Shown here piece by piece: positions 9,906 to 42,440 of a stretch of 64,000 bases of DNA. A program made the translations under genes and the position numbers. The stretch covers positions 1,054,001 to 1,118,000 of the forward strand of contig JAUKPH010000029.1 of assembly GCA_030549335.1 (NCBI GenBank). The letters run 5' to 3'. Below the pieces are notes generated by a model that did not search any database, was not told the DNA's origin, and worked only from the letters and a program-made list of their open reading frames with translations. Every line of letters starts with the position of its first letter. Positions within the stretch are counted from its first letter, which is position 1. This stretch comes from Pontederia crassipes (lineage: Eukaryota > Streptophyta > Magnoliopsida > Commelinales > Pontederiaceae).

Positions 9906-10349
9906 TCACCATGCATCAACAGGCACGAAAGCGTCGAAAATTTGGCATATTTTGACAGCGTAAAAAATTTCGCGTTTTTAACCTTCTTTGCTGAAAACAG
10001 GAGTAAAAGGCGCGCGGGCGAAATTTCGCACCACCGGAAAATTTGCGCCTGAGTCCTTTTTTCGTCCCAATCATCTCACCATGCATCAACAGGCACGAAA
10101 GCGTAAAAAATTTGGCATCTTTTGACAGCGTAAAAAATTTCGCATTTTTTTACCTTCTTGGCTGAAAACACGAGTAAAAGGCGTGCGTGCGAAATTTCGC
10201 ACCCCCGAAAAATTTTCATCCGAGTCCATTTTTTCATCCCAATCATCTCACCATGCATCAACAAGCACGAAAGCGTAAAAAATTTGGCATATTTTGACAG
10301 CGTAAAAAATTTTGGGTTTTTAACCTTCTTTGCTGAAAACACGAGTAAA

Positions 10350-13300
10350 AGGCGCGCGCGCGAAATTTTGCACCCCCGAAAAATTTTCAACCGAGTCCAT
10401 TTTTTCGTCCCAATCATCTCACCAGGCATCAATAGGCACGAAATCGTCGAAAATTTGGCATCTTTTAACAGCGTAAAAAATTTCACATTTTTTGACCTTC
10501 TTGCTGAAAACACGGGTAAAAGGCGCGCGCGCGAAAATTTGGCATATTTTGACAGCGTAAAAAATTTCACGTTTTTGACCGTCTTTGCTGAAAACACGAG
10601 TAAAAGGCGCGCGCGCGAATTTCGCACCACCGGAAAATTTGCGCCTGAGTCCTTTTTTCGTCCCAATCATCTCACCATGCATCAACAGGCATGAAAGCGT
10701 CGAAAATTTGGCATATTTTGACAGCGTAAAAAATTTCGCATTTTTTACCTTCTTGGCTGAAAACACGAGTAAGAGGCGCGCGCGCGAAATTTCGCATCCC
10801 CGAAAAATTTTCATCCGAGTCTATTTTTTCATCCCAATCATCTCTCCATGCATCAACAGGCACGATAGCGTCGAAAATTTAGCATCTTTTGACAGCGTCA
10901 AAAATTTCGCATTTTTTGACCTTTTTGGCTTAAAACACGAGTAAAAGGCGTGCGCGCAAAATTTCGCACCCCGGAAAATTTTCATCCGAGTCCATTTTTT
11001 CATCCCAATCATCTCATCATGCATCAACAGGCAATAAAGCGTCGAAAATTTGGCATCTTTTGACAACGTCAAAAATTTCTTATTTTTTGACCTTCTTGGT
11101 TGAAAACACGAGTAAAAGTCGCGCGCGCAAAATTTTGCACCCCCGAAAAATTTTCATCCGAGTCCATTTTTTCCTCCCAATCATCTTACCAGGCATCAAT
11201 AGGCACTAAATCGTCGTAAATTTGGCATCTTTTAACATCGTAAAAAATTTCGTGTTTTTTGACCTTCTTGCTGAAAACACGGGTAAAAGGCGCGCGCGCG
11301 AAAATTTGGCATATTTTGACAGCATAAAAAATTTCGCGTTTATGACCTTTTTGGCTGAAAACACGAGTAAAAGGCTCGCGCGGGAAATTTCGCACCCCCG
11401 AAAAATTTGCGCCTGAGTACTTTTTTCGTCCCAATCATATCACCATGCATCAACAGGCACGAAAGCGTCGAAAATTTGGCAGCTTTTGACAGCATCAAAA
11501 ATTTCTCATTTTTTGACCTTCTTGGCTGAAAACACGAGTAAGAGGCGCGCGCGCGAAATTTCGCATCCCCGAAAAATTTTCATCCGAGTCTATTTTTTCA
11601 TCCCAATCATCTCTCCATGCATCAACAGGCACGATAGCGTCGAAAATTTAGCATCTTTTGACAGCGTCAAAAATTTCGCATTTTTTGACCTTTTTGGCTT
11701 AAAACACGAGTAAAAGGCGTGCGCGCAAAATTTCGCACCCCGGAAAAATTTTCATCCTAGTCCATTTTTTCCTCCCAATCATCTTACCAGGCATCAATAG
11801 GCACTAAATCGTCGTAAATTTGGCATCTTTTAACATCGTAAAAAATTTCGTGTTTTTTGACCATCTTGCTGAAAACACGGGTAAAAGGCGCGCACGCGAA
11901 AATTTGGCATATTTTGACAGCGTAAAAAATTTCGCATTTTTAACCTTCTTTCCTGAAAACACGAATAAAAGGCGCGCACACGAAATTTCGCACCACCGGA
12001 AAATTTGCGCCTGAGTCCTTTTTTCATCCCAATCATCTCACCATGCATCAACAGGCACGAAAGCGTCGAAAATTTGGCATCTTTTGACAGTGTCAAAAAT
12101 TTCGCATTTTTTGACCTTCTTGGCTGAAAACACGAGTAAAAGGCGTGCGCGCGAAATTTCGCACCCCCGAAAAATTTTCATCCGAGTCCATTTTTTCGTC
12201 CCAATCATCTCACCATGCATCAACAGGCACGAAAGCGTCGAAAATTTGGCATATTTTGACAGCGTAAAAAATTTCGCGTTTTTGACCTTCTTGGCTGAAA
12301 ACACGAGTAAAAGGCGCGCGCGCGAAATTTCGCACCCCTGGAAAATTTGTGCCTGAGTCATTTTTTCATCCCAATCATCTCACCATGCATCAACAGGCAT
12401 GAAAGCGTAAAAAATTTGGCATCTTTTGACAACGTAAAAAATTTCGCATTTTTGACCTTCTTGGCTGAAAACACGAGTAAAAGGCGTGCGCGCAAAATTT
12501 CGCACCCCCGGAAAATTTTCATCCGAGTCCATTTTTTCGTCCCAATCATCTCACCATGCATCAACAGGCACGAAAGCGTCGAAAATTTGGCACCTTTTTA
12601 CAGCGTCAAAAATTTCACATTTTTTGACATTTTGGCTGAAAACACGGGTAAAAGGCGCGCGCGCGAAGTTTTGCACCCCCGGAAGTTTGCACCAGAGTCC
12701 TTTTTTTCGTCCCAATCATCTCACCATGCATCAACGGGCACGAAAGCGTCAAAACTTTGGCATCTTTTGACAGCGTCAAAAATTTCGCGTTTTTTGACCT
12801 TCTTGGCTGAAAACACGAGTAAAAGGCGCGCGCACGAAATTTTGCACCCCCGAAAAATTTGCGCCTGAGTCCTTTTTTTCGTCCCAATCATCTCACCATG
12901 CATCAACAGGCACGAAAGCGTCGAAAATTTGGCATCTTTTGACAGCGTAAAAAATTTCTTATTTTTTGTCCTTCTTGGCTGAAAACACGAGTAAAAGGCA
13001 TGCGCGCGAAATTTTGAACCCCCGGAAAATTTTCATCCGAGTCCTTTTTTTCGTCCCAATCATCTCACCATGCATCAACGGGCACGAAAGCGTCGAAAAT
13101 TTGGCATCTTTTGACAGCGTCAAAAATTGCATGTTTTTTGACCTTCTTGGCTGAAAACACGAGTAAAAGGCGCTCGCGCGAAATTTTGCACCCCCGAAAA
13201 ATTTTCATCCGAGTCCATTTTTTCGTCCCAATCATCTCACCAGGCATCAATAGGCATGAAATCGTCGAAAATTTGGCATCTTTTGACAGCGTAAAAAATT

Positions 13301-13515
13301 TCACATTTTTTTACCTTCTTGCTGAAAACACGGGTAAAAGGCGCGCGCGCGAAAATTTGGCATATTTGGACAGCGTAAAAAATTTCGCGTTTTTAACCTT
13401 CTTTGCTGAAAACACGAGTAAAAGGCGCGCGCGCGAATTTCGCACCACCGGAAAATTTGCGCCTGAGTCCTTTTTTCGTCCCAATCATCACACCATGCAT
13501 CAACAGGCACGAAAG
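10350..13515. repeat. Block D1
   Basis: Related at high similarity to 32,920-34,800 (offset 22,566, then 21,968) and to 38,980-41,285 (offset about 27,771). The 598-base step matches a 3F+1S sub-block. Markers include the rare AGTAAGAGGCGCG unit (10,769 and 11,538, 769 bases apart), GCAATAAAGCG (11,032), GGCACTAAATCGTCG (11,203 and 11,802) and GACATTTTGGCTG (12,625). The 769-base internal spacing equals four full plus one short unit. Confidence 0.8.
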
Positions 13516-15910
13516 CGTCGAAAATTTGGCATCTTTTGACAGCGTCAAAAATTTCGCATTTTTTTACCTTCTTGGCTGAAAACACGAGTACAAGGCGTGC
13601 GTGCGAAATTTTGCACCCCCGGAAAATTTTCATCCGAGTCCTTTTTTTTGTCCCTATCATCTCACCATGCATCAACAGGCACGAAAGCGTAAAAAATTTG
13701 GCATCTTTTGACAGCGTAAAAAATTTCGCATTTTTTTACCTTCTTGGCTGAAAACACGAGTAAAAGGCGTGCGTGCGAAATTTCGCACCCCCGGAAAATT
13801 TTCATCCGAGTCCATTTTTTCATCCCAATCATCTCACCATGCATCAACAAGCACGAAAGCGTAAAAAATTTGGCATATTTTGACAGCGTAAAAAATTTCG
13901 GGTTTTTAACCTTCTTTGCTGAAAACACGAGTAAAAGGCGCGCGCGCGAAATTTTGCACCCCCGAAAAATTTTTATCCGAGTCCTTTTTTCGTCCCAATC
14001 ATCTCACCAGGCATCAACAGAAACGAAAGCATCGAAAATTTGGCATATTTTGACAGCGTCAAAAATTTCGCGTTTTTTTTTACCTTCTTGGCTGAAAACA
14101 CGGGTAAAAGGTGCGCACGCGAAATTTCGCACCCCTGGAAGTTTGCGCCAGAGTCATTTTTTTCGTCCCAATCATCTCACTAAGCATCAACGGGCATGAA
14201 AGCGTCGAATATTTGGCATCTTTTGACAGCGTCAAAAATTTCGGATTTTTAACCTTCTTTGCTGAAAACACGAGTAAAAGGTGCGCGCGCGAAATTTTGC
14301 ACCACCGGAAAATATGCGTCTGAGTCCTTTTTTCGTCCCAATCATCTCATCATGCATCAACAGGCACGAAAGAGTCGAAAATTTGGCATCTTTTGACAGC
14401 GTCAAAAATTTGGCATATTTTGACAGCGTCAAAAATTTCGCATTTTGTTTTACCTTCTTGGCTGAAAACACGGGTAAAAGGCGCGCGCGCGAAATTTCGC
14501 ACCCCCGGAAGTTTGCGCCAGAGTCCTTTTTTTCGTCCCAATCATCTCACCACGCATCAACGGGCATGAAAGCGTCGAATATTTGGCATCTTTTGACAGC
14601 GTCAAAAATTTCGCATTTTTTGACCTTCTTGATGAAAACACGGGTAAAAGGCGCGCGCGCGAAAATTTGGCATATTTTGACAGCATAAAAAATTTCGCGT
14701 TTTTGACCTTCTTCGTTGAAAACACGAGTAAAAGGCGCGCGCGCGAAATTTCGCACCCCCGAAAAATTTGCGCCTGAGTACTATTTTCGTCCCAATTATC
14801 TCACCATGCATCAACAGGCACGAAAGCACCGAAAATTTGGCATCTTTTGACAGCGTCAAAAATTTCGCATTTTTTTACCTTCTTGGCTGAAAACACGAGT
14901 AAAAGGCGCGCGCGCGAAATTTCGCACCCCCGGAAAATTTTTATCCGAGTCTATTTTTTCGTTCCAATCATCTCACCAGGCATCAATAGGCACGAAATCG
15001 TCGAAAATTTGGCATCTTCTGACAGCGTAAAAAATTTCACATTTTTTGACCTTCTTGCTGAAAACACGGGTAAAAGGTGCGCGCGCGAAAATTTGGCATA
15101 TTTTGACAGCGTAAAAAATTTCGCGTTTTTAACCTTCTTTGCTGAAAACAGGAGTAAAAGGCACGCGCGCGAAATTTCGCACCACCAGAAAATTTGCGCC
15201 TGAGTCCTTTTTTCGTCCCAATCATCTCACCATGCATCAACAGGCACAAAAGCGTCGAAAATTTGGCATATTTTGACAGCATAAAAAATTTCGGATTTTT
15301 AACCTTCTTTGCTGAAAACACGAGTAAAAGGCGCGCGCGCGAAATTTTGCACCACCGGAAAATATGCGTCTGAGTCCTTTTTTCGTCCCAATCATCTCAC
15401 CATGCATCAACAGGCACGAAAGAGTCGAAAATTTGGCATCTTTTGACAGCGTCAAAAATTTCGCATTTTTTTACCTTCTTGGCTGAAAACACGAGTAAAA
15501 GACGTGCGTGCGAAATTTTGCACCCCCGGAAAATTTTCATCCGAGTCCTTTTTTTTGTCCCAATCATCTCACCATGCATCAACAGGCACGAAAGCGTAAA
15601 AAATTTGGCATCTTTTGACAGCGTAAAAAATTTTGCATTTTTTTACCTTCTTGGCTGAAAACACGAGTAAAAGGCGTGCGTGCGAAATTTCGCACCCCCG
15701 GAAAATTTTCATCCGAGTTCATTTTTTCGTCCCAATCATCTCACCATGCATCAACAAGCACGAAAGCGTAAAAAATTTGGCATATTTTGACAGCGTAAAA
15801 AATTTCGGGTTTTTAACCTTCTTTGCTGAAAACAGGAGTAAAAGGCGCGCGCGCGAAATTTCGCACCACCGGAAAATTTGCGCCTGAGTCCTTTTTTCGT
15901 CCCAATCATC
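13365..15910. repeat. Block C, copy 2
   Basis: Copy of 7,730-9,905. It carries about 370 extra bases between 14,090 and 14,460, including the rearranged unit at 14,374-14,432. A third, shorter relative starts near 15,850 and matches 7,800-8,400 (offset about 8,056); it leads into the 2,388-base HOR. Confidence 0.78.
14374..14432 (+). other. 27-base internal duplication in a monomer
   Basis: AAAATTTGGCAT occurs at 14,378 and again at 14,405. The segment AAAATTTGGCAT...TTTTGACAGCGTC is thus present twice, 27 bases apart, the second copy with the CATATTTT variant. The step equals the distance between the A/T motifs at monomer positions 104 and 131, as expected if those two mispaired. Confidence 0.88.
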
Positions 15911-16350
15911 ACACCATGCATCAACAGGCACGAAAGCGTCGAAAAGTTGGCATCTTTTGACAGCGTCAAAAATTTCGCATTTTTTTACCTTCTTGGCTGA
16001 AAACACGAGTACAAGGCGTGCGTGCGAAATTTTGCACCCCCGGAAAATTTTCATCCGAGTCCTTTTTTTTGTCCCTATCATCTCACCATGCATCAACAAG
16101 CACGAAAGCGTAAAAAATTTGGCATCTTTTGACAGCGTAAAAAATTTCGCATTTTTTTACCTTCTTGGCTGAAAACACGAGTAAAAGGCGTGCGTGCGAA
16201 ATTTCGCACCCCCGGAAAATTTTCATCCGAGTCCATTTTTTCGTCCCAATCATCTCACCATGCATCAACAAGCACGAAAGCGTAAAAAATTTGGCATATT
16301 TTGACAGCGTAAAAAATTTCGGGTTTTTAACCTTCTTTGCTGAAAACACG
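15910..16350. repeat. Transition units before the 2,388-base HOR
   Basis: Two to three full units of the GTGCGTGCG type with CAAGCACGAAAGCG. They resemble 7,854-8,300 and 13,490-13,900 more closely than the HOR that follows. No short unit and no foreign sequence is present. Confidence 0.7.
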
Positions 16351-16949
16351 AGTAAAAGGCGCGCGCGCGAAATTTTGCACCCCCGAAATATTTTTATCCG
16401 AGTCCTTTTTTCATCCCAATCATCTCACCAGGCATCAACAGGAACGAAAGCATCGAAAATTTGGCAAATTTTGACAGCGTCAAAAATTTCGCATTTTTTT
16501 TTACCTTCTTGGATGAAAACACGGGTAAAAGGCGCGCGCGCGAAATTTCGCACCCCCGGAAGTTTGCGCCAGAGTCATTTTTTTCGTCCCAATCATCTCA
16601 CCACGCATCAACGGGCATGAAAGCGTCGAATATTTGGCATCTTTTGACAGCGTCAAAAATTTCGCATTTTTTGACCTTCTTGATGAAAACATGGGTAAAA
16701 GGCGCGCGCGCGAAAATTTGGCATATTTTGACAGCATAAAAAATTTCGCGTTTTTGACCTTCTTGGCTGAAAACACGAGTAAAAGGCGCGGGCGCGAAAT
16801 TTCGCACCCCCGAAAAATTTGTGCATGAGTACTTTTTTCGTCCCAATTATCTCACAATGCATCAACAGGCACGAAAGCACCGAAAATTAGGCATCTTTTG
16901 ACAGCGTCAAAAATTTCGCATTTTTTGACCTTCTTGGCTGAAAACACGA
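16350..16949. repeat. 2,388-base HOR, leading partial copy
   Basis: Contains the last four units of the HOR order: TTATCCGAG type, GGAAG type, 84-base short unit near 16,695, and GTGCATGAGTAC type. It matches 18,739-19,335 at offset 2,386. Both share GGATGAAAACACGGG and AACATGGG variants that are absent from the corresponding part of the later copies. Confidence 0.85.
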
Positions 16950-19335
16950 GTAAAAGGCGCGCGCGTGAAATTTCGCACCCCCGGAAATTTTTTATCCGAG
17001 TCCATTTTTTCGTTCCAATCATCTCACCAGGCATCAATAGGCACGAAATCGTCGAAAATTTGGCATCTTCTGACAGCGTAAAAAATTTCACATTTTTTGA
17101 CCTTCTTGCTGAAAACACGGGTAAAAGGTGCGCGCGCGAAAATTTGGCATATTTTGACAGCGTAAAAAATTTCGCGTTTTTAACCTTCTTGGCTGAAAAC
17201 ACGAGTAAAAGGCGTGCGCGCGAAATTTCGCACCACCGGAAAATTTTCATCCGAGTCCATTTTTTCGTCCCAATCATCTCACCATGCATCAACAGGCACG
17301 AAAGCGTAAAAAATTTGGCACATTTTGACAGCGTAAAAAATTTCGGGTTTTTAACCTTCTTTGCTGAAAACACGAGTAAAAGGCGCGCGCGCGAAATTTC
17401 GCACCACCGGAAAATTTCCGCCTGAGCCCTTTTTTCGTCCCAATCATCTCACCAGGCATCAACAGGAATGAAAGCATCGAAAATTTGGCATATTTTGACA
17501 GCGTCAAAAATTTTGCATTTTTTTTACCTTCTTGGCTGAAAACATGGGTAAAAGGCGCGCGCGCGAAATTTCGCACCCCCGGAAGTTTGCGCCAGAGTCC
17601 TTTTTTTCGTCCCAATCATCTCACCACGCATCAACGGGCATGAAAGCGTCGAATATTTGGCATCTTTTGACAGCATCAAAAATTTCGCATTTTTTGACCT
17701 TCTTGATGAAAACACGGGTAAAAGGCGCGCGCGCGAAAATTTGGCATATTTTGACAGCATAAAAAATTTCGCGTTTTTGAACTTCTTCGCTGAAAACACG
17801 AGTAAAAGGCGCGCGCGCGAAATTTCGCACCCCCGAAAAATTTGCGCCTTAGTCCTTTTTTCGTCCCAATCATCTCACCATGCATCAACAGGCACGAAAG
17901 CGTCGAAAATTTGGCATTTTTGACAGCGTCAAAAATTTCGCATTTTTTGACCTTCTTGGCTCAAAACACGAGTAAAAGGCGCGCGCGCGAAATTTCGCAC
18001 CACCGGAAAATTTCAGCCTGAGTCCTTTTTTCCTCCCAATCATCTCACCAGGCATCAACAGGAATGAAAGCATCGAAAATTTGGCATATTTTGACAGCGT
18101 CAAAAATTTCACATTTTTTTTACCTTCTTGGCTGAGAACACGGGTAAAAGGCGCGCGCGCGAAATTTCGCACCCCCGGAAGTTTGCGCCAGAGTCCTTTT
18201 TTCGTCCCAATCATCTCACCACGCATCAACGGGCATGAAAGCGTCGAATATTTGGCATCTTTTGACAGCGTCAAAAATTTCGCATTTTTTGACCTTCTTG
18301 ATGAAAACACGGGTAAAAGGCGCGCGCGCGAAAATTTGGCATATTTTGACAGCATAAAAAATTTCGCGTTTTTGAACTTTTTGGCTGAAAACACGAGTAA
18401 AAGGCGCGCGCGCGAAATTTTGCACCCCCGAAAAATTTGCGCCTTAGTCCTTTTTTCGTCCCAATCATCTCACCATGCATCAACAGGCACGAAAGCGTCG
18501 AAAATTTGGGATTTTTTACAGCGTCAAAAATTTCGCTTTTTTTGACCTTCTTGGCTGAAAACACGAGTAAAAGGCGTGCGCGCGAAATTTCGCACCACCG
18601 GAAAATTTTCATCCGAGTCCATTTTTTCGTCCCAATCATCTCACCATGCATCAACAGGCACGAAAGCGTAAAAAATTTGGCATATTTTGACAGCGTAAAA
18701 AATTTTGGGTTTTTAACCTTCTTTGCTGGAAACACGAGTAAAAGGCGCGCGCGCGAAATTTTGCACCCCCGAAAATTTTTTATCCGAGTCCTTTTTTCGT
18801 CCCAATCATCTCACCAGGCATCAACAGGAACGAAAGCATCGAAAATTTGGCAAATTTTGACAGCGTCAAAAATTTCGCATTTTTTTTTACCTTCTTGGAT
18901 GAAAACACGGGTAAAAGGCGCGCGCGCGAAATTTCGCACCCCCGGAAGTTTGCGCCAGAGTCATTTTTTTCGTCCCAATCATCTCACCACGCATCAACGG
19001 GCATGAAAGCGTCGAATATTTGGCATCTTTTGACAGCGTCAAAAATTTCGCATTTTTTGACCTTCTTGATGAAAACATGGGTAAAAGGCGCGCGCGCGAA
19101 AATTTGGCATATTTTGACAGCATAAAAAATTTCGCGTTTTTGACCTTCTTGGCTGAAAACACGAGTAAAAGGCGCGGGCGCGAAATTTCGCACCCCCGAA
19201 AAATTTGTGCATGAGTACTTTTTTCGTCCCAATTATCTCACCATGCATCAACAGGCACGAAAGCACCGAAAATTAGGCATCTTTTGACAGCGTCAAAAAT
19301 TTCGCATTTTTTGACCTTCTTGGCTGAAAACACGA
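16950..19335. repeat. 2,388-base HOR, copy 1 (2,386 bases)
   Basis: Same 16-unit order as the next copies. It differs by scattered substitutions and indels (CCGGAAATTTTTTATCC near 16,981, GCTGGAAACACG near 18,725, GGATG and CATGGG variants near 18,895 and 19,079). It is the least typical of the four full-length copies. Confidence 0.92.
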
Positions 19336-21723
19336 GTAAAAGGCGCGCGCGTGAAATTTCGCACCCCCGGAAAATTTTTATCCGAGTCCATTTTTTCGTT
19401 CCAATCATCTCACCAGGCATCAATAGGCACGAAATCGTCGAAAATTTGGCATCTTCTGACAGCGTAAAAAATTTCACATTTTTTGACCTTCTTGCTGAAA
19501 ACACGGGTAAAAGGTGCGCGCGCGAAAATTTGGCATATTTTGACAGCGTAAAAAATTTCGCGTTTTTAACCTTCTTGGCTGAAAACACGAGTAAAAGGCG
19601 TGCGCGCGAAATTTCGCACCACCGGAAAATTTTCATCCGAGTCCATTTTTTCGTCCCAATCATCTCACCATGCATCAACAGGCACGAAAGCGTAAAAAAT
19701 TTGGCACATTTTGACAGCGTAAAAAATTTCGGGTTTTTAACCTTCTTTGCTGAAAACACGAGTAAAAGGCGCGCGCGCGAAATTTCGCACCACCGGAAAA
19801 TTTCCGCCTGAGCCCTTTTTTCGTCCCAATCATCTCACCAGGCATCAACAGGAATGAAAGCATCGAAAATTTGGCATATTTTGACAGCGTCAAAAATTTT
19901 GCATTTTTTTTACCTTCTTGGCTGAAAACATGGGTAAAAGGCGCGCGCGCGAAATTTCGCACCCCCGGAAGTTTGCGCCAGAGTCCTTTTTTTCGTCCCA
20001 ATCATCTCACCACGCATCAACGGGCATGAAAGCGTCGAATATTTGGCATCTTTTGACAGCATCAAAAATTTCGCATTTTTTGACCTTCTTGATGAAAACA
20101 CGGGTAAAAGGCGCGCGCGCGAAAATTTGGCATATTTTGACAGCATAAAAAATTTCGCGTTTTTGAACTTCTTCGCTGAAAACACGAGTAAAAGGCGCGC
20201 GCGCGAAATTTCGCACCCCCGAAAAATTTGCGCCTTAGTCCTTTTTTCGTCCCAATCATCTCACCATGCATCAACAGGCACGAAAGCGTCGAAAATTTGG
20301 CATTTTTGATAGCGTCAAAAATTTCGCATTTTTTGACCTTCTTGGCTGAAAACACGAGTAAAAGGCGCGCGCGCGAAATTTCGCACCACCGGAAAATTTC
20401 AGCCTGAGTCCTTTTTTCCTCCCAATCATCTTACCAGGCATCAACAGGAATGAAAGCATCGAAAATTTGGCATATTTTGACAGCGTCAAAAATTTCGCAT
20501 TTTTTTTACCTTCTTGGCTGAGAACACGGGTAAAAGGCGCGCGCGCGAAATTTCGCACCCCCGGAAGTTTGCGCCAGAGTCCTTTTTTTCGTCCCAATCA
20601 TCTCACCACGCATCAACGGGCATGAAAGCGTCGAATATTTGGCATCTTTTGACAGCGTCAAAAATTTCGCATTTTTTGACCTTCTTGATGAAAACACGGG
20701 TAAAAGGAGCGCGCGCGAAAATTTGGCATATTTTGACAGCATAAAAAATTTCGCGTTTTTGAACTTTTTGGCTGAAAACACGAGTAAAAGGCGCGCGCGC
20801 GAAATTTTGCACCCCCGAAAAATTTGCGCCTTAGTCCTTTTTTCGTCCCAATCATCTCACCATGCATCAACAGGCACGAAAGCGTCGAAAATTTGGGATT
20901 TTTTACAGCGTCAAAAATTTCGCTTTTTTTGACCTTCTTGGCTGAAAACACGAGTAAAAGGCGTGCGCGCGAAATTTCGCACCACCGGAAAATTTTCATC
21001 CGAGTCCATTTTTTCGTCCCAATCATCTCACCATGCATCAACAGGCACGAAAGCGTAAAAAATTTGGCATATTTTGACAGCGTAAAAAATTTTGGGTTTT
21101 TAACCTTCTTTGCTGAAAACACGAGTAAAAGGCGCGCGCGCGAAATTTTGCACCCCCGAAATATTTTTATCCGAGTCCTTTTTTCATCCCAATCATCTCA
21201 CCAGGCATCAACAGAAACGAAAGCATCGAAAATTTGGCATATTTTGACAGCGTCAAAAATTTCGCATTTTTTTTTACCTTCTTGGCTGAAAACACGGGTA
21301 AAAGGCGCGCGCGCGAAATTTCGCACCCCCGGAAGTTTGCGCCAGAGTCCTTTTTTTCGTCCCAATCATCTCACCACGCATCAACGGGCATGAAAGCGTC
21401 GAATATTTGGCATCTTTTGACAGCGTAAAAAATTTCGCATTTTTTGACCTTCTTGGCTGAAAACACGAGTAAAAGGCGCGCGCGCGAAAATTTGGCATAT
21501 TTTGACAGCATAAAAAATTTCGCGTTTTTGACCTTCTTGGTTGAAAACACGAGTAAAAGGCGCGGGCGCGAAATTTCGCACCCCCGAAAAATTTGTGCAT
21601 GAGTACTTTTTTCGTCCCAATTATCTCACCATGCATCAACAGGCACGAAAGCACCGAAAATTAGGCATCTTTTGACAGCGTCAAAAATTTCGCATTTTTT
21701 GACCTTCTTGGCTGAAAACACGA
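19336..21723. repeat. 2,388-base HOR, copy 2 (12 full + 4 short units)
   Basis: Unit starts at 19336, 19507, 19591, 19762, 19934, 20104, 20188, 20358, 20530, 20700, 20784, 20954, 21125, 21298, 21469 and 21553 sum to exactly 2,388 bases. The 84-base units begin at 19507, 20104, 20700 and 21469. They split the HOR into sub-blocks of 597, 596, 769 and 426 bases, that is 3F+S, 3F+S, 4F+S and 2F+S. Full units alternate between CATCCGAG, GCC(T)TAG/CAGCCTGAG and GGAAGTTTGCGCCAGAG box types. Confidence 0.95.
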
Positions 21724-24111
21724 GTAAAAGGCGCGCGCGTGAAATTTCGCACCCCCGGAAAATTTTTATCCGAGTCCATTTTTTCGTTCCAATCATCTCA
21801 CCAGGCATCAATAGGCACGAAATCGTCGAAAATTTGGCATCTTCTGACAGCGTAAAAAATTTCACATTTTTTGACCTTCTTGCTGAAAACACGGGTAAAA
21901 GGTGCGCGCGCGAAAATTTGGCATATTTTGACAGCGTAAAAAATTTCGCGTTTTTAACCTTCTTGGCTGAAAACACGAGTAAAAGGCGTGCGCGCGAAAT
22001 TTCGCACCACCGGAAAATTTTCATCCGAGTCCATTTTTTCGTCCCAATCATCTCACCATGCATCAACAGGCACGAAAGCGTAAAAAATTTGGCACATTTT
22101 GACAGCGTAAAAAATTTCGGGTTTTTAACCTTCTTTGCTGAAAACACGAGTAAAAGGCGCGCGCGCGAAATTTCGCACCACCGGAAAATTTCCGCCTGAG
22201 CCCTTTTTTCGTCCCAATCATCTCACCAGGCATCAACAGGAATGAAAGCATCGAAAATTTGGCATATTTTGACAGCGTCAAAAATTTTGCATTTTTTTTA
22301 CCTTCTTGGCTGAAAACATGGGTAAAAGGCGCGCGCGCGAAATTTCGCACCCCCGGAAGTTTGCGCCAGAGTCCTTTTTTTCGTCCCAATCATCTCACCA
22401 CGCATCAACGGGCATGAAAGCGTCGAATATTTGGCATCTTTTGACAGCATCAAAAATTTCGCATTTTTTGACCTTCTTGATGAAAACACGGGTAAAAGGC
22501 GCGCGCGCGAAAATTTGGCATATTTTGACAGCATAAAAAATTTCGCGTTTTTGAACTTCTTCGCTGAAAACACGAGTAAAAGGCGCGCGCGCGAAATTTC
22601 GCACCCCCGAAAAATTTGCGCCTTAGTCCTTTTTTCGTCCCAATCATCTCACCATGCATCAACAGGCACGAAAGCGTCGAAAATTTGGCATTTTTGATAG
22701 CGTCAAAAATTTCGCATTTTTTGACCTTCTTGGCTGAAAACACGAGTAAAAGGCGCGCGCGCGAAATTTCGCACCACCGGAAAATTTCAGCCTGAGTCCT
22801 TTTTTCCTCCCAATCATCTTACCAGGCATCAACAGGAATGAAAGCATCGAAAATTTGGCATATTTTGACAGCGTCAAAAATTTCGCATTTTTTTTACCTT
22901 CTTGGCTGAGAACACGGGTAAAAGGCGCGCGCGCGAAATTTCGCACCCCCGGAAGTTTGCGCCAGAGTCCTTTTTTTCGTCCCAATCATCTCACCACGCA
23001 TCAACGGGCATGAAAGCGTCGAATATTTGGCATCTTTTGACAGCGTCAAAAATTTCGCATTTTTTGACCTTCTTGATGAAAACACGGGTAAAAGGAGCGC
23101 GCGCGAAAATTTGGCATATTTTGACAGCATAAAAAATTTCGCGTTTTTGAACTTTTTGGCTGAAAACACGAGTAAAAGGCGCGCGCGCGAAATTTTGCAC
23201 CCCCGAAAAATTTGCGCCTTAGTCCTTTTTTCGTCCCAATCATCTCACCATGCATCAACAGGCACGAAAGCGTCGAAAATTTGGGATTTTTTACAGCGTC
23301 AAAAATTTCGCTTTTTTTGACCTTCTTGGCTGAAAACACGAGTAAAAGGCGTGCGCGCGAAATTTCGCACCACCGGAAAATTTTCATCCGAGTCCATTTT
23401 TTCGTCCCAATCATCTCACCATGCATCAACAGGCACGAAAGCGTAAAAAATTTGGCATATTTTGACAGCGTAAAAAATTTTGGGTTTTTAACCTTCTTTG
23501 CTGAAAACACGAGTAAAAGGCGCGCGCGCGAAATTTTGCACCCCCGAAATATTTTTATCCGAGTCCTTTTTTCATCCCAATCATCTCACCAGGCATCAAC
23601 AGAAACGAAAGCATCGAAAATTTGGCATATTTTGACAGCGTCAAAAATTTCGCATTTTTTTTTACCTTCTTGGCTGAAAACACGGGTAAAAGGCGCGCGC
23701 GCGAAATTTCGCACCCCCGGAAGTTTGCGCCAGAGTCCTTTTTTTCGTCCCAATCATCTCACCACGCATCAACGGGCATGAAAGCGTCGAATATTTGGCA
23801 TCTTTTGACAGCGTAAAAAATTTCGCATTTTTTGACCTTCTTGGCTGAAAACACGAGTAAAAGGCGCGCGCGCGAAAATTTGGCATATTTTGACAGCATA
23901 AAAAATTTCGCGTTTTTGACCTTCTTGGTTGAAAACACGAGTAAAAGGCGCGGGCGCGAAATTTCGCACCCCCGAAAAATTTGTGCATGAGTACTTTTTT
24001 CGTCCCAATTATCTCACCATGCATCAACAGGCACGAAAGCACCGAAAATTAGGCATCTTTTGACAGCGTCAAAAATTTCGCATTTTTTGACCTTCTTGGC
24101 TGAAAACACGA
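21724..24111. repeat. 2,388-base HOR, copy 3
   Basis: Exactly 2,388 bases. I saw no difference from copy 2 in the segments compared. Copies 2 and 3 alone share GTAAAAGGAGCGCG (20,700 and 23,088) and CATCTTACCAGG (20,429 and 22,817), where copies 1 and 4 have GGCGCGCG and CATCTCACCAGG. This indicates a very recent duplication of this internal unit. Confidence 0.95.
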
Positions 24112-26328
24112 GTAAAAGGCGCGCGCGTGAAATTTCGCACCCCCGGAAAATTTTTATCCGAGTCCATTTTTTCGTTCCAATCATCTCACCAGGCATCAAT
24201 AGGCACGAAATCGTCGAAAATTTGGCATCTTCTGACAGCGTAAAAAATTTCACATTTTTTGACCTTCTTGCTGAAAACACGGGTAAAAGGTGCGCGCGCG
24301 AAAATTTGGCATATTTTGACAGCGTAAAAAATTTCGCGTTTTTAACCTTCTTGGCTGAAAACACGAGTAAAAGGCGTGCGCGCGAAATTTCGCACCACCG
24401 GAAAATTTTCATCCGAGTCCATTTTTTCGTCCCAATCATCTCACCATGCATCAACAGGCACGAAAGCGTAAAAAATTTGGCACATTTTGACAGCGTAAAA
24501 AATTTCGGGTTTTTAACCTTCTTTGCTGAAAACACGAGTAAAAGGCGCGCGCGCGAAATTTCGCACCACCGGAAAATTTCCGCCTGAGCCCTTTTTTCGT
24601 CCCAATCATCTCACCAGGCATCAACAGGAATGAAAGCATCGAAAATTTGGCATATTTTGACAGCGTCAAAAATTTTGCATTTTTTTTACCTTCTTGGCTG
24701 AAAACATGGGTAAAAGGCGCCCGCGCGAAATTTCGCACCCCCGGAAGTTTGCGCCAGAGTCCTTTTTTTCGTCCCAATCATCTCACCACGCATCAACGGG
24801 CATGAAAGCGTCGAATATTTGGCATCTTTTGACAGCATCAAAAATTTCGCATTTTTTGACCTTCTTGATGAAAACACGGGTAAAAGGCGCGCGCGCGAAA
24901 ATTTGGCATATTTTGACAGCATAAAAAATTTCGCGTTTTTGAACTTCTTCGCTGAAAACACGAGTAAAAGGCGCGCGCGCGAAATTTCGCACCCCCGAAA
25001 AATTTGCGCCTTAGTCCTTTTTTCGTCCCAATCATCTCACCATGCATCAACAGGCACGAAAGCGTCGAAAATTTGGCATTTTTGATAGCGTCAAAAATTT
25101 CGCATTTTTTGACCTTCTTGGCTGAAAACACGAGTAAAAGGCGCGCGCGCGAAATTTCGCACCACCGGAAAATTTCAGCCTGAGTCCTTTTTTCCTCCCA
25201 ATCATCTCACCAGGCATCAACAGGAATGAAAGCATCGAAAATTTGGCATATTTTGACAGCGTCAAAAATTTCGCATTTTTTTTACCTTCTTGGCTGAGAA
25301 TACGGGTAAAAGGCGCGCGCGCGAAATTTCGCACCCCCGGAAGTTTGCGCCAGAGTCCTTTTTTTCGTCCCAATCATCTCACCACGCATCAACGGGCATG
25401 AAAGCGTCGAATATTTGGCATCTTTTGACAGCGTCAAAAATTTCGCATTTTTTGACCTTCTTGATGAAAACACGGGTAAAAGGCGCGCGCGCGAAAATTT
25501 GGCATATTTTGACAGCATAAAAAATTTCGCGTTTTTGAACTTTTTGGCTGAAAACACGAGTAAAAGGCGCGCGCGCGAAATTTTGCACCCCCGAAAAATT
25601 TGCGCCTTAGTCCTTTTTTCGTCCCAATCATCTCACCATGCATCAACAGGCACGAAAGCGTCGAAAATTTGGGATTTTTTACAGCGTCAAAAATTTCGCT
25701 TTTTTTGACCTTCTTGGCTGAAAACACGAGTAAAAGGCGTGCGCGCGAAATTTCGCACCACCGGAAAATTTTCATCCGAGTCCATTTTTTCGTCCCAATC
25801 ATCTCACCATGCATCAACAGGCACGAAAGCGTAAAAAATTTGGCATATTTTGACAGCGTAAAAAATTTTGGGTTTTTAACCTTCTTTGCTGAAAACACGA
25901 GTAAAAGGCGCGCGCGCGAAATTTTGCACCCCCGAAATATTTTTATCCGAGTCCTTTTTTCATCCCAATCATCTCACCAGGCATCAACAGAAACGAAAGC
26001 ATCGAAAATTTGGCATATTTTGACAGCGTCAAAAATTTCGCATTTTTTTTTACCTTCTTGGCTGAAAACACGGGTAAAAGGCGCGCGCGCGAAATTTCGC
26101 ACCCCCGGAAGTTTGCGCCAGAGTCCTTTTTTTCGTCCCAATCATCTCACCACGCATCAACGGGCATGAAAGCATCGAATATTTGGCATCTTTTGACAGC
26201 GTAAAAAATTTCGCATTTTTTGACCTTCTTGGCTGAAAACACGAGTAAAAGGCGCGCGCGCGAAAATTTGGCATATTTTGACAGCATAAAAAATTTCGCG
26301 TTTTTGACCTTCTTGGTTGAAAACACGA
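24112..26328. repeat. 2,388-base HOR, copy 4 (lacks the last unit)
   Basis: Follows the HOR order through unit 15 (short unit ending at 26,328). The expected GTGCATGAGTAC unit is then replaced by a GCGCCTCAGTAC unit. Copy-specific changes include GCGCCCGCGCG at 24,717 and GAGAATACGGG at 25,296. This is the right edge of the homogeneous array. Confidence 0.92.
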
Positions 26329-26830
26329 GTAAAAGGCGCGCGCAGCGAAATTTCGCACCCCCGAAAAATTTGCGCCTCAGTACTTTTTTCGTCCCAATTA
26401 TCTCACCATGCATCAACAGGCACGAAAGCACCGAAAATTTGGCATCTTTTGACAGCGTCAAAAATTTCGCACTTTTTTACCTTCTTGGCTGAAAACACGA
26501 GTAAAAGGCGTGCGCGCGAAATTTCGCACCACCGGAAAATTTTCATCCGAGTCCATTTTTTCGTCCCAATCATCTCACCATGCATCAACAGGCACGAAAG
26601 CGTAAAAAATTTGGCATATTTTGATAGCGTAAAAAATTTCGGGTTTTTAACCTTCTTTGCTGAAAACACGAGTAAAAGGCGCGCGCGCGAAATTTTGCAC
26701 CCCCGAAAAATTTTTATCCGAGTCCTTTTTTCGTCCCAATCATCTCACCAGGCATCAACAGAAACGAAAGCATCGAAAATTTGGCATATTTTGACAGCGT
26801 CAAAAATTTCGCATTTTTTTTTACCTTCTT
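26329..26830. repeat. Block F0
   Basis: About three full units beginning with the GCGCCTCAGTAC variant (26,371). The opening CG tract is interrupted (GCGCGCAGCG at 26,338). The order of units matches the start of F1 and F2 sub-modules further right. Confidence 0.7.
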
Positions 26831-28780
26831 GGCTGAAAACACGGGTAAAAGGCGCGCGCGCGAAATTTTGCACCCCTGGAAGTTTGCGCCAGAGTCCTTT
26901 TTTTCGTCCCAATCATCTCACTAAGCATCAACGGGCATGAAAGCGTCGAATATTTGGCATCTTTTGACAGCGTCAAAAATTTTGCATTTATTGACCTTCT
27001 TCCTGAAAACACGAGTAAAAGGCGCGCGCGCGAAAATTTGGCATATTTTGACAGCATAAAAAATTTCGCGTTTTTTACCTTCTTGGCTGAAAACACGAGT
27101 AAAAGGCGCGCGCGCAAAATTTCGCACCCCCGAAAAATTTGCGCCTGAGTACGTTTTTCGTCCCAATTATCTCACCATGCATCAACAGGCACGAAAGCAC
27201 CGAAAATTTGGCATCTTTTGACAGCGTCAAAAATTTCGCATTTTTTGACCTTCTTGGCTGAAAACACGAGTAAAAAGCGCGCGCGCGAAATTTCGCACCC
27301 CCGGAAAATTTTTATCCGAGTCCATTTTTTCGTTCCAATCATCTCACCAGGCATCAATAGGCACGAAATCGTCGAAAATTTTGCATCTTCTGACAGCGTA
27401 GAAAATTTCACATTTTTTGACCTTCTTGCTGAAAACACGAGTAAAAGGTGCGCGCGCGAAAATTTGGCATATTTTGACAGCGTAAAAAATTTCGCGTTTT
27501 TAACCTTCTTTGCTGAAAACAGGAGTAAAAGGCGCGCGCGCGAAATTTTGCACCACCGGAAAATTTGCGCCTGAGTCCTTTTTCCATCCTAATCATCTCA
27601 CCATGCATCAACAGGCATGAAAGCGTCGAAAATTTGGCATCTTTTGACAGCGTCAAAAATTTCGCATTTTTTTACCTTCTTGGCTGAAAATACGAGTAAA
27701 AGGCGTGCGTGCGAAATTTCGCACCACCGAAAAATTTTCATCCGAGTCCATTTTTTCGTCCCAATCATCTCACCATGCATCAACAGGCACGAAAGCGTAA
27801 AAAATTTGGCATATTTTGACAGCGTAAAAAATTTCGGGTTTTTAACCTTCTTTGCTGAAAACACGAGTAAAAGGCGCGCGCGCGAAATTTTGCACCCCCG
27901 AAAAATTTTTATCCGAGTCCTTTTTTCGTACCAATCATCTCACAAGGCATCAACAGGAACGAAAGCATAAAAAATTTGGCATATTTTGACAGCGTCAAAA
28001 ATTTCGCATTTTTTTTTACCTTCTTGGCTGAAAACACGGGTAAAAGGCGCGCGCGCGAAATTTCGCACCCCCGGAAGTTTGCGCCAGAGTCCTTTTTTTC
28101 GTCCCAATCATCTCACCACGCATCAACTGGCATGAAAGCGTCGAATATCTGTCATCTTTTGACAGCGTCAAAAATTTCGCATTTTTTGACCTTTTTGATG
28201 AAAACACGGGTAAAAGGCGCGCGCACGAAAATTTGGCATATTTTGACAGCATAAAAAATTTCGCGTTTTTGACCTTCTTGGCTGAAAACACGAGTAAAAG
28301 GCGCGCGCGCGAAATTTCGCACCCCCGAAAAATTTGCGCCTGAGTCCTTTTTTCGTCCCAATCATCTCACCATGCATCAACAGGCACGAAAGCGTCGAAA
28401 ATTTGGCATTTTTGACAGCGTCAAAAATTTCGCATTTTTTTAATCTTCTTGGCTGAAAACATGAGTAAAAGGCGTGCGCGCGAAATTTCCCACCACCGGA
28501 AAATTTTCATCCGAGTCCATTTTTTCATCCCAATCATCTCACCATGCATCAACAGGCACGAAAGCGTAAAAAAATTGGCATATTTTGACAGCGTAAAAAA
28601 TTTCGGGTTTTTAACCTTCTTTGCTGAAAACACGAGTAAAAGGCGCGCGCGCGAAATTTTTGACCCCCGAAAAATTTTTATCCGAGTCCTTTTTTCGTCC
28701 CAATCATCTCACCAGGCATCAACAGAAATGAAAGCATCGAAAATTTGGCATATTTTGACAGCGTCAAAAATTTCGCATTT
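26830..28780. repeat. Block E1
   Basis: Related to 30,330-32,460 (offset 3,503, then about 3,676) and to 36,560-38,650. Markers: CATTTATTGACCTTCTTCC (26,985), CCATCCTAATCATC (27,584), CATCAACTGGCATG (28,120), AATATCTGTCATC (28,144) and GAAATTTTTGACCCCCG (28,653). The 173-base change in offset is one full unit. Confidence 0.8.
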
Positions 28781-30330
28781 TTTTTTACCTTCTTGGCTGA
28801 AAACACGGGTAAAAGGCGCGCGCGCGAAATTTCGCACCCCCGGAAGTTTGCGCCAGAGTCCTTTTTTTCGTCCCAATCATCTCACCACGCATCAACGGGC
28901 ATGAAAGCATCGAATATTTGGCATCTTTTGACAGCGTAAAAAATTTCGCATTTTTTGACCTTCTTGGCTGAAAACACGAGTAAAAGGCGCGCGCGCGAAA
29001 ATTTGGCATATTTTGACAGCATAAAAAATTTCGCGTTTTTGACCTTCTTGGTTGAAAACACGAGTAAAAGGCGCGCGCGCGCGAAATTTCGCACCCCCGA
29101 AAAATTTGCGCCTCAGTACTTTTTTCGTCCCAATTATCTCACCATGCATCAACAGGCACGAAAGCACCGAAAATTTGGCATCTTTTGACAGCGTCAAAAA
29201 TTTCGCATTTTTTGACCTTCTTGGCTGAAAACACGAGTAAAAGGCGTGCGCGCGAAATTTTGCACCACCGGAAAATTTTCATCCGAGTCCATTTTTTCGT
29301 CCCAATCATCTCACCATGCATCAACAGAATGAAAGCGTAAAAAATTTGGCATATTTTGACAGCGTAAAAATTTTTGGGTTTTTAACCTTCTTTGCTGAAA
29401 ACACGAGTAAAAGGCGCGCGCGCGAAATTTTGCACCCCCGAAAAATTTTTATCCGAGTCCTTTTTTCATCCCAATCATCTCACCAGGCATCAATAGAAAC
29501 GAAAGCATCGAAAATTTGGCATATTTTGACAGCGTCAAAAATTTCGCATTTTTTTTTACCTTCTTGGCTGAAAACACGGGTAAAAGGCGCGCGCGCGAAA
29601 TTTCGCACCCCCGGAAGTTTGCGCCAGAGTCCTTTTTTTCGTCCCAATCATCTCACCACGCATCAACGGGCATGAAAGCATCGAATATTTGGCATCTTTT
29701 GACAGCGTCAAAAATTTCGCATTTTTTGACCTTCTTGGCTGAAAACACGAGTAAAAGGCGCGCGCGCGAAAATTTGGCATATTTTGACAGCATAAAAAAT
29801 TTCGCGTTTTTGACCTTCTTGGTTGAAAACACGAGTAAAAGGCGCGCGCGCGAAATTTCGCACCCCCGAAAAATTTGCGCCTCAGTACTTTTTTCGTCCC
29901 AATTATCTCACCATGCATCAACAGGCACGAAAGCACCGAAAATTTGGCATCTTTTGACAGCGTCAAAAATTTCGCATTTTTTTACCTTCTTGGCTGAAAA
30001 CACGAGTAAAAGGCGTGCACGCGAAATTTCGCACCACCGAAAAATTTTCATCCGAGTCCATTTTTTCGTCCCAATCATCTCACCATGCATCAACAGGCAC
30101 GAAAGCGTAAAAAATTTGGCATATTTTGACAGCGTAAAAAATTTTGGGTTTTTAACCTTCTTTGCTGGAAACACGAGTAAAAGGCGCGCGCGCGAAATTT
30201 TGCACCCCCGAAAAATTTTTATCCGAGTCCTTTTTTCGTCCCAATCATCTCACCAGGCATCAACAGAAACGAAAGCATCGAAAATTTGACATATTTTGAC
30301 AGCGTCAAAAATTTCGCATTTTTTTTTACC
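28780..30330. repeat. Block F1 with 769-base modules
   Basis: The CCTCAGTAC marker recurs at 29,111 and 29,880, 769 bases apart, which equals four full plus one short unit. The same spacing recurs in F2 (35,087 and 35,856). Box types follow the order TTATCCGAG, GGAAG, short, CCTCAG, CATCCGAG. Confidence 0.78.
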
Positions 30331-32460
30331 TTCTTTGCTGAAAACACGGGTAAAAGGCGCGCGCGCGAAATTTCGCACCCCTGAAAGTTTGCGCCAGTGT
30401 CCTTTTTTTCGTCCCAATCATCTCACTAAGCATCAACGGGCATGAAAGCGTCGAATATTTGGCATCTTTTGACAGCGTCAAAAATTTTGTATTTATTGAC
30501 CTTCTTCCTGAAAACACGAGTAAAAGGCGCGCGCGCGAAAATTTGGCATATTTTGACAGCATAAAAAATTTCGCGTTTTTGACCTTCTTGGCTGAAAACA
30601 CGAGTAAAAGGCGCGCCCGAAATTTCGCAGCCCCGAAAAATTTGCGCCTGAGTACTTTTTTCGTCCCAATTATCTCACCATGCATCAACAGGCACGAAAG
30701 CACCGAAAATTTGGCATCTTTTGACAGCGTCAAAAATTTCGCATTTTTTGACCTTCTTGGCTGAAAACACGAGTAAAAGGCGCGCGCGCGAAATTTCGCA
30801 CCCCCGAAAAATTTTTATCCGAGTCCATTTTTTCGTTCCAATCATCTCACCAGGCATCAATAGGCACGAAATCGTCAAAAATTTGGCATCTTCTGACATC
30901 GTAAAAAATTTCACATTTTTTGACCTTCTTGGCTGAAAACACGAGTAAAAGGTGCGCGCGCGAAAATTTGGCATATTTTGACAGCGTAAAAAATTTCGCG
31001 TTTTTAACCTTCTTTGCTGAAAACAGGAGTAAAAGGCGCGCGCGCGAAATTTCGCACTACCGGAAAATTTGCGCCTGAGTCCTTTTTTCGTCCCAATCAT
31101 CTCACCATGCATCAACAGGCACAAAAGCGTCGAAAATTTGGCATATTTTGACAGCGTAAAAAATTTTGGGTTTTTAACCTTCTTTGCTGAAAACACGAGT
31201 AAAAGGCGCGCGCGCGAAATTTCGCACCACCGGAAAATTTGCGCCTGAGTCCTTTTTCCATCCTAATCATCTCACCATGCATCAACAGGCACGAAAGCGT
31301 CGAAAATTTGGCATCTTTTGACAGCGTCAAAAATTTCGCATTTTTTTACTTTCTTGGCTGAAAATACGAGTAAAAGGCGTGCGTGCGAAATTTCGCACCC
31401 CCGGAAAATTTTCATCCGAGTCCATTTTTTCGTCCCAATCATCTCACCATGCATCAACAGGCACGAAAGCGTAAAAAATTTGGCATATTTTGACAGCGTA
31501 AAAAATTTCGGGTTTTTAACCTTCTTTGCTGAAAACACGAGTAAAAGGCGCGCGCGCGAAATTTTGCACCCCGGAAAAATTTTTATCCGAGTCCTTTTTT
31601 CGTACCAATCATCTCACAAGGCATCAACAGGAACGAAAGCATAAAAAATTTGGCATATTTTGACAGCGTCAAAAATTTCGCATTTTTTTTTTTACCTTCT
31701 TGGCTGAAAACACGGGTAAAAGGCGCGCGCGCGAAATTTCGCACCCCCGGAAGTTTGCGCCAGAGTCCTTTTTTTCGTCCCAATCATCTCACCACGCATC
31801 AACTGGCATGAAAGCGTCGAATATCTGTCATCTTTTGACAGCGTCAAAAATTTCGCATTTTTTGACCTTTTTGATGAAAACACGGGTAAAAGGCGCGCGC
31901 GCAAAAATTTGGCATATTTTGACAGCATAAAAAATTTCGCGTTTTTGACCTTCTTGGCTGAAAACACGAGTAAAAGGCGCGCGCGCGAAATTTCGCACCC
32001 CCGAAAAATTTGCGCCTGAGTCCTTTTTTCGTCCCAATCATCTCACCATGCATCAACAGGCACGAAAGCGTCGAAAATTTGGCATTTTTGACAGCGTCAA
32101 AAATTTCGCATTTTTTTAACCTTCTTGGCTGAAAACATGAGTAAAAGGCGTGCGCGCGAAATTTCGCACCACCGGAAAATTTTCATCCGAGTCCATTTTT
32201 TCATCCCAATCATCTCACCATGCATAAACAGGCACGAAAGCGTAAAAAATTTGGCATATTTTGACAGCGTAAAAAATTTTGGGTTTTTATCCTTCTTTGC
32301 TGAAAACACGAGTAAAAGGCGCGCGCGCGAAATTTTTGACCCCCGAAAAATTTTTATCCGAGTCCTTTTTTCGTCCCAATCATCTCACCAAGCATCAACA
32401 GAAATGAAAGCATCGAAAATTTGGCATATTTTGACAGCGTCAAAAATTTCGCGTTTTTTT
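30330..32460. repeat. Block E2
   Basis: Second copy of the E block, carrying the same markers (CATTTATTGACC near 30,490, CCATCCTAATCATC at 31,258, AACTGGCATG at 31,801, CTGTCATC at 31,824). It matches E3 at offset 6,232-6,234 and is followed by D2 as E3 is by D3. Confidence 0.82.
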
Positions 32461-41285: not shown

Positions 41286-42440
41286 GTCGAAAATTTGGCA
41301 TATTTTGACATCGTAAAAAATTTCGCATTTTTTACCTTCTTGGCTGAAAACACGAGTAAGAGACGCGTGCGCGAAATTTCGCATCCCCGAAAAATTTTCA
41401 TCCGAGTCCATTTTTTCGTCCCAATCATCTCACCATGCATCAACAGGCACGAAAGCGTCGAAAATTTGGCATCTTTTGACAGCGTCAAAAATTTCTTATT
41501 TTTTGACCTCCTTGGCTGAAAACACGAGTAAAAGTCGCGCGCGCGAAATTTTGCACCCCCGAAAAATTTTTAGCCGAGTCCATTTTTTCCTCCCAATCAT
41601 CTCACCAGGCATCAATAGGCACTAAATCGTCGAAAATTTGGCATCTTTTAACAGCGTAAAAAATTTTGTGTTTTTTGACCTTCTTGCTGAAAACAAGGGT
41701 AAAAGGCGCGCACGCGAAAATTTGGCATATTTTGACAGCGTAAAAAATTTCGCGTTTTTAACATTCTTTGCTGAAAACACGAATAAAAGGCGCGCGCACG
41801 AAATTTTTCACCATCGGAAAATTTGCGCCTGAGTCCTTTTTTCGTCCCAATCATCTCACCATGCATCAAGAGGCACGAAAGCGTCGAAAATTTGGCATCT
41901 TTTGACAACGTAAAAAATTTCGCATTTTTGACCTTCTTGGCTGAAAACACGAGTAAAAGGCGTGCGCGCAAAATTTCGCACCCCCGGAAAATTTTCATCC
42001 GAGTCCATTTTTTCGTCCCAATCATCTCAACATACATCAATAGGCACGAAAGCGTCAAAAATTTGGCATATTTTTACAGCGTCAAAAATTTCACGTTTTT
42101 TGACATTTTGGCTGAAAACACGGGTAAAAGGCGCGCGCACGACGTTTTGCACCCCCGGAAGTTTGCGCCAGAGTCCTTTTTTTCGTCCCAATCATCTCAC
42201 CATGCATCAACGGGGACGAAAGCGTCGAAAGTTTGGCATCTTTTGACAGCGTCAAAAATTTCGCGTTTTTTGAACTTCTTGGCTGAAAACATGAGTAAAA
42301 GGCGCGCGCGCGAAATTTGCACCCCCAAAAAATTTGCGCCTGTGTCCTTTTTTTCGACCCAATCATCTCACCTTGCATCAACAGGCACGAAAGCGTCGAA
42401 AATTTGGCATCTTTTGACAGCGTAAAAAATTTCGGGTTTT
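41285..42440. repeat. Diverged D-like block (D4)
   Basis: Follows the D order (GGCACTAAATCG at 41,611, GACATTTTGGCTG at 42,100) at an offset of 1,704 from D3. It carries many private changes such as CAACATACATCAATAGG (42,028), CACGACGTTTTGCACC (42,138) and CATCAACGGGGACG (42,205). It looks like an older duplicate than D1-D3. Confidence 0.7.

Follow-up and report, generated by a model that had tools for sequence, protein, structure and literature searches.

We analysed a window of 64,000 nucleotides from Pontederia crassipes (GenBank assembly GCA_030549335.1; 1.13 Gb in 43 contigs), the whole of positions 1,054,001–1,118,000 of contig JAUKPH010000029.1 (C29), and found that it is filled throughout by a satellite with a ~172-bp unit, in which a short unit (S) of about half this length recurs and takes part in a higher-order repeat (HOR) of 2,388 bp. 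The origin of S and its part in building the array are the subject of this analysis. Cutting at a 35-base anchor, with tiles spanning positions 193–63,934, yielded 400 units, comprising 56 S (82–85 bp) and 344 others. Tandem Repeats Finder (TRF) gave a period of 172 across 1,492–61,452, with further rows leftward, among the 150 of its 239 rows listed, and a 21-base landmark had 0 matches on the reverse strand of the window. Adjacent full units are a median of 22 edits of ~171 apart (~13%) and any two full units 21 (~12%), while 249 of 340 full units have a near-identical partner somewhere (nearest neighbour at 0–3 edits). The features on which the description of the HOR rests are as follows.

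5755..43429, plus strand: S-rich zone of the array edge, holding 49 of the 56 S units of the window
15940..26697, plus strand: full extent of the 2,388-bp periodicity by self-alignment, ~4.5 copies
16716..16799, plus strand: example of S, 84 bp, the 3' half of a full unit
16800..19185, plus strand: HOR copy 1, 2,386 bp, 22–25 differences to the other copies
19186..21573, plus strand: HOR copy 2, 2,388 bp, identical to copy 3 (0 of 2,389 columns)
21574..23961, plus strand: HOR copy 3, 2,388 bp, identical to copy 2
23962..26350, plus strand: HOR copy 4, 2,389 bp, 7 differences to copies 2 and 3

By average-linkage clustering, with numbers standing for classes of full units (F), each HOR copy reads [28 21 S][25 44 27 S][45 44 27 S][45 25 26 27 S], that is 12 F and 4 S; another class numbering returned this pattern as well. 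Its blocks measure 426, 597, 596 (595 once) and 769 bp (768 and 770 once each) and sum to 2,386–2,389 bp. Self-alignment of 15940–24308 with 18329–26697 gave 98.87% identity at a lag of 2,388–2,389. The four copies are mutually 98.95–100% alike and neighbouring full units ~13% different, so that the copies are much more alike than the monomers inside a block, as a HOR should be. A preliminary description of this DNA had proposed a 2,388-base HOR of 16 units, 12 full and 4 short, at 16,350–26,328; anchor cut, clustering and self-alignment all confirm it, its block lengths of 597, 596, 769 and 426 bases are right, and its extent lies within the measured 15,940–26,697.

The same description held that the S-ended blocks are reused outside the array. 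Counting as words all S-ended strings with at least two full units, we found 37 tokens of repeated words in the window (11 of 29 types), against a mean of 0.04 (maximum 2 in 2,000) when the order of F was shuffled and of 0.89 (maximum 9 in 2,000) when S was placed randomly in the real F order. Outside the HOR, 20 of 40 word tokens are repeated (random S placement: mean 0.21, maximum 4), and this recurrence is stable at clustering cut-offs of 4–13 edits (13–23 tokens versus means of 0.14–0.59, maximum 6). Monomer clustering, the check proposed for the claim, thus finds repeated S-ended strings outside the HOR far above chance. The individual words outside the HOR that bear on the claim are these.

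8744..9169, plus strand: [28 21 S], the 2F+S word outside the HOR (also at 14749, 27119, 30623, 35832 and 36857)
10620..11387, plus strand: [30 31 32 33 S], 768 bp, the length of the 4F+S word of the HOR with other monomers
28315..29084, plus strand: [45 25 26 27 S], an occurrence outside the array of the HOR's 4F+S word
29085..29855, plus strand: [28 25 26 27 S], a related word
35063..35831, plus strand: [28 25 26 27 S], a related word

Two of the four HOR words therefore occur elsewhere in the window, at seven places ([28 21 S] six times and [45 25 26 27 S] once), and the same two occur at 11 places in the stretch of contig C5 that carries a matching array edge, described below. The two 3F+S words, [25 44 27 S] and [45 44 27 S], have 0 occurrences outside the HOR in the window and 0 in the C5 stretch. 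These counts depend on how finely units are classed: strict clustering (4–5 edits) leaves no HOR word outside the HOR, a cut-off of 7 edits gives one in the window and two in C5, and 9 edits gives two and two. The reuse of HOR sub-blocks thus stands for two of four words when units 7–9 edits apart are pooled, and fails for both 3F+S words. Of the 769-base spacings cited for it, those at 29,111 and 35,087 correspond to [28 25 26 27 S], close kin of the HOR word, and that at 10,769 consists of other monomers. In this word at 10,620, the three classes compared out of four (30, 31 and 33) differ from the HOR-word classes in the same place by 13–28 columns, which led us to reject equal block length as proof of equal content. 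A 598-bp word, [34 31 33 S], follows at 11,388.

The satellite array ends at C29:1,140,123 and again at C5:5,425,867, and the following ~16 kb, as far as the C5 sequence fetched for the comparison reaches, are 99.0–99.3% identical. From this near-identical flank, C29 is most likely the other haplotype of the C5 locus, with a recent duplication as the alternative. The outermost units of the two arrays align in stretches of 22 and 29 units (51 units; 8,356 bp), with 48 and 66 edits over 3,528 and 4,828 bp, respectively, and 10 units found only on C29 lie between them. The unit alignment of the two contigs is good only in stretches, and its long gaps (for example 59.7–76 kb on the scale of the window) are forced and were given no interpretation. 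Further in, the two edges carry different HORs. On C5 there are three copies of a 2,900-bp HOR, [160 21 S][22 161 162 28 21 S][23 25 26 27 S][45 25 26 46 S], with 8–19 differences of 2,903, and three in a row of a 1,024-bp HOR, [28 21 S][22 44 46 S] (160 replacing 28 in the first), with 2–18 differences of 1,025. The 2,388-bp HOR is absent from the 110 kb of C5 read, where its best full-length match is 88.4% and partial matches reach 93.2% over 1,902 bp. Taken together, ~1% divergence of the flank and 0–7 differences among copies 2–4 suggest that at least the last amplification of the HOR would postdate the parting of the C29 and C5 copies.

An assembly artefact, with satellite collapsed, expanded or misjoined, could also lie behind the HOR or behind the contrast of C29 with C5; the identity of HOR copies 2 and 3 and the nature of C29, a 1.8-Mb contig beside the 60-Mb C5 with satellite in both orientations, speak for it. 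We regard this as very improbable, as copies 2 and 3 are separated from copy 1 by 22 positions and from copy 4 by 7, the flank and the 51 outermost units align with C5, and HORs of the same style occur elsewhere on both contigs.

S aligns with the 3' half of the full unit (columns 89–175 of 176), on which ground a foreign element inserted into the array was rejected. All 56 S units of the window start with A(A)TTTNGCA after a unit end of GAA(A). At the S junction the unit-end GAAA is followed by the mid-unit ATTTGGCA, and the two sites share CGAAA and a similar following stretch: each half of the full unit opens, after CGAAA, with a TTT(C/G)GCA-like sequence. At its end the consensus unit has GCGCGCGCG, a CpG-rich alternating stretch, and then AAA; the GC content of the satellite is 43%.

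The exact 28-base S junction occurs 68 times in the 1.13 Gb, 40 times at the C29 edge and 28 times at the matching C5 edge. A looser pattern has 143 matches in the genome, and among 100 listed, 94 are without mismatch; of these 94, 89 lie at these two edges, one is a true S on C12 and four, at C29:1.480–1.492 Mb, were rejected as S, being full 171-bp units with CGCGAAAA in place of the usual CGTCGAAAA. In the interior of C29 (994–1,040 kb) there are 0 S among 267 full units, and median pairwise differences on this contig are 12 edits in the interior, 20 in the S zone and 22 at the edge. Eight of ten 1- or 2-kb samples taken elsewhere are near the consensus (5.0–7.8 edits); the remaining two, both from C5 (5.56 and 6.00 Mb), are diverged like the edge (13.2 and 11.6 edits), which indicates that the interior of the array is not simply uniform.

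S varies less from copy to copy than full units do (a median of 6 edits in ~84 bp, or 7%, versus 21 in ~171, or 12%) and is about half a unit long, both of which would suit a role in chromatin, with S shifting nucleosome phase or carrying a binding site and being kept by selection. The confinement of the exact junction to two array edges (with at least one lone copy on contig C12 under the looser pattern), the lack of S among the 267 interior units of C29, and the distance of only 1–2 bases between the main S types, Sa and Sb, and the 3' halves of some full units all argue against such a role, which we regard as very improbable.

S had further been described as a punctuation mark of reusable modules. 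That the HOR is built from blocks ending in S follows arithmetically from the presence of S in a tandem repeat, whichever repeat it is, and the nested description is by itself no evidence for punctuation. If S were an active boundary, at which recombination or replication restarts preferentially and arrays are shuffled as S-ended modules, rearrangement breakpoints should be enriched at S. In favour of such a boundary, S-ended words are reordered on both contigs, and the window outside the HOR has seven word types in common with C5, against a mean of 0.19 (maximum 2) under random S placement; recurrence of words is also predicted by plain duplication of segments. The tests that bear on this used the S-rich zone of both contigs (253 + 262 = 515 units, with 99 of the 124 S).

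For pairs of units matched at a cut-off of 5 edits (cut-offs of 3 and 7 agree), a different full unit follows in 807 of 1,304 cases without S between and in 338 of 601 across S; looking back, the preceding full unit differs in 825 of 1,324 cases without S and in 186 of 449 across it. Where just one member of a pair has S (4 pairs forward, 136 backward), the units always differ, and with the 136 backward pairs taken as S breaks the count becomes 322 of 585, still with no excess. Junctions across S are of 21 types among 99, versus 120 among 317 plain junctions, or 58 (51–65) when these are thinned to 99. The sole measure that favours looser S junctions is the entropy of the next class, 1.23 bits across S versus 0.90 at plain junctions.

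At base level, breakpoints were the ends of 2,667 colinear segments; each distinct end in the zone was counted once, and expectations were set by length. Unique right ends inside S number 28 (23.8 expected); unique left ends number 6 in S and 8 at steps where S is aligned against F, together 14 (23.7 expected). The full unit after S holds 44 right ends (47.3 expected) and 49 left ends (47.1 expected), and the full unit before S 40 right (48.4 expected) and 57 left (48.1 expected). A first count had omitted ends at S-against-F steps and odd units; a recount added them, with the result unchanged. At such steps lie 69 of the 2,667 left ends (8 unique in the zone) and none of the right ends. Odd-length units (neither 150–190 nor <100 bp) were excluded from the tree, phase and segment tests, and three misaligned S rows with letters in 5' columns (type Sf), whose column comparison was unused, were kept in the segment and breakpoint counts.

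The enrichment of breakpoints at S that a recombination boundary requires was thus not found in the S-rich zone of the two contigs, and matched units, junction types and breakpoints each led to the rejection of S as a break hot spot. Duplication breakpoints fall all along the unit without concentrating in S. An active boundary is accordingly very unlikely. Of the punctuation claim, the reusable S-ended words are real in the window and in C5, and the boundary function is not supported by these tests. S behaves as a passive marker of descent, not as a director of breaks.

The reading we favour, and consider very probable, is that S is a deletion-derived half monomer, carried along passively as the array edge underwent unequal exchange or break-induced amplification. 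In this scenario, a deletion between the two CGAAA sites would have removed the 5' half of a unit and left the 84-bp S, which is the simplest origin for the relation seen between the two sequences. S would then have travelled inside longer segments as neighbouring units exchanged out of register or underwent break-induced replication, and such events would also have produced hybrid full units and whole-unit changes in block length (4F+S, 3F+S, 2F+S). In the latest step a 16-unit segment may have been multiplied about fourfold into the 2,388-bp HOR on C29, and the matching C5 edge would have multiplied other combinations of the same S-ended words. Models of unequal exchange or break-induced replication do give hybrid units and changes in unit number (PMC8997354). 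By a search for the best of all parent pairs, with no null run, class 22 is the left of 23 joined to the right of 25 (1 difference, versus 8 for the best single parent), class 44 the left of 22, 158, 161 or 170 joined to the right of 26 (4 versus 11), and class 27 combines 67 and 19 (2 versus 6). Full-unit classes that follow S are related to one another (17.7 mean differences versus 22.6, with 0 of 300 random draws as low), a kinship that inherited cassettes would be expected to show.

Several observations weigh against this account or parts of it. Besides the higher entropy across S, the classes that precede S show no more kinship than chance would give (in 218 of 300 draws the value was as low). 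A single birth of S is not proven: among the 124 S, the two main types Sa (67) and Sb (32) are nearest to different full units, class 36 for Sa and classes 22 and 25 for Sb, with 1–2 differences each, which points to more than one birth or to later conversion by neighbours, and a tree of 3' halves, which has little power with 726 distinct sequences, does not place S in one clade. A lone true S of 85 bp with a different 3' half lies on another chromosome, C12, at ~11.865 Mb (C12:11,864,800–11,865,400) and may have arisen separately at this motif. When ends are sorted by phase across the whole of both stretches, left ends are too many at the unit start (121 versus 57), one of the two places where S would have arisen, and scarce at columns 48–79 (35 versus 88); right ends are scarce at columns 48–63 (21 versus 51) and not at 64–79 (60 versus 57). 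The evidence does not tell exchange and break-induced replication apart, and the allelism of C29 and C5 is drawn from a ~16-kb flank of ~99% identity, not from phasing. An unsystematic look by eye at the long units (200–307 bp) for the counterpart that the S deletion would have left yielded no exact one.

Being closer to one another across words (median 7%) than full units are (12–13%), S units could instead provide short stretches of homology that hold segments in register while an array is re-copied after breaks, and the two alleles of one edge would then rebuild different HORs out of a shared stock of S-ended words. We consider this very unlikely; if true, the half unit would be a cis feature that shapes the birth of HORs without being a break site.

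Other repeats of this style lie in and beside the window. A second HOR of ~3,930 bp at 46911–54769 consists of a 16-unit and an 8-unit S-ended block (2,651–2,652 + 1,278 bp) in two copies that differ at 19 of 3,930 positions. It is followed at 54770–61528 by an S-free block of eight unit classes (81–87 and 71 in a separate class numbering), present twice, and from 61529 to 64000, and on to ~C29:1,133 kb toward the array edge, by a 9-unit HOR of ~1,463 bp (8F+S), with some dozen copies on C29 and roughly three on C5. Odd-length units among the 344 non-S units number four, at 1382–1648 (267 bp), 14295–14494 (200 bp), 44978–45113 (136 bp) and 63668–63934 (267 bp); by eye, some units of 144 or 200 bp show an apparent loss or gain of one 27-bp internal sub-repeat. 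In samples along C29 the satellite is in minus orientation at bases 1–1,000 and at 1.5 Mb and in plus orientation at 0.6–1.14 Mb, which suggests an inversion or a join of arrays. On C5 (60 Mb), satellite was found at 5.43–6.00 Mb, and the samples taken at 6.5 and 7.5 Mb had none. On C29, some 25 kb beyond the array, the minus strand carries an open reading frame of 509 amino acids (C29:1,164,753–1,166,282), which we presume to resemble a plant PRCC-like proline-rich protein; a Pfam search with it returned no family.

The array is a known kind of thing, unusually well resolved. As with human alpha-satellite HORs, it contains tandem blocks of distinct ~171-bp monomers whose copies are ~99–100% alike, related HORs differ by whole units, and haplotypes carry different HORs; unlike alpha satellite, it has a half monomer that recurs within the blocks, and few copies (~4), the likeness being one of organisation. 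In one human study, HOR variants are attributed to probable monomer deletion in an ancestral HOR at the array edge, and some HOR layers are present on one haplotype only (PMC11062924); the divergence from interior to edge on C29 resembles the layered primate centromeres of the same source (PMC11062924), but two of the ten samples from elsewhere, both on C5, diverged as much as the edge. CentromereArchitect reports hybrid and partial monomers in human centromeres, such as length-113 partials in cen8 (PMC8336445), and the present array likewise has hybrids of the left of one unit and the right of another, and truncated units. Truncated human monomers are classed there as non-monomeric blocks (PMC8336445), whereas in the present window a single truncated unit is found 56 times over 64 kb. 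Satellite arrays of Salicaceae share HOR organisation and haplotype differences (PMC12046899), but have other monomers and lengths (Palv156, Palv148) and, in the parts of that source examined, no half-unit words. A search of the open literature for truncated or half monomers with HORs found only two papers, both on human alpha satellite or centromeres, and a text search of the open literature with four stretches of the satellite gave only single 12-letter matches, in three papers on unrelated subjects by title.

The two edges offer a clean, small natural experiment on the birth of HORs, in which one array edge is seen twice, each time with its own recent HORs drawn from a shared set of words. 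With its exact junction confined to these two edges, the half unit is a diagnostic marker with which segments can be followed, and its case argues against a truncated unit directing the breakage of an array.

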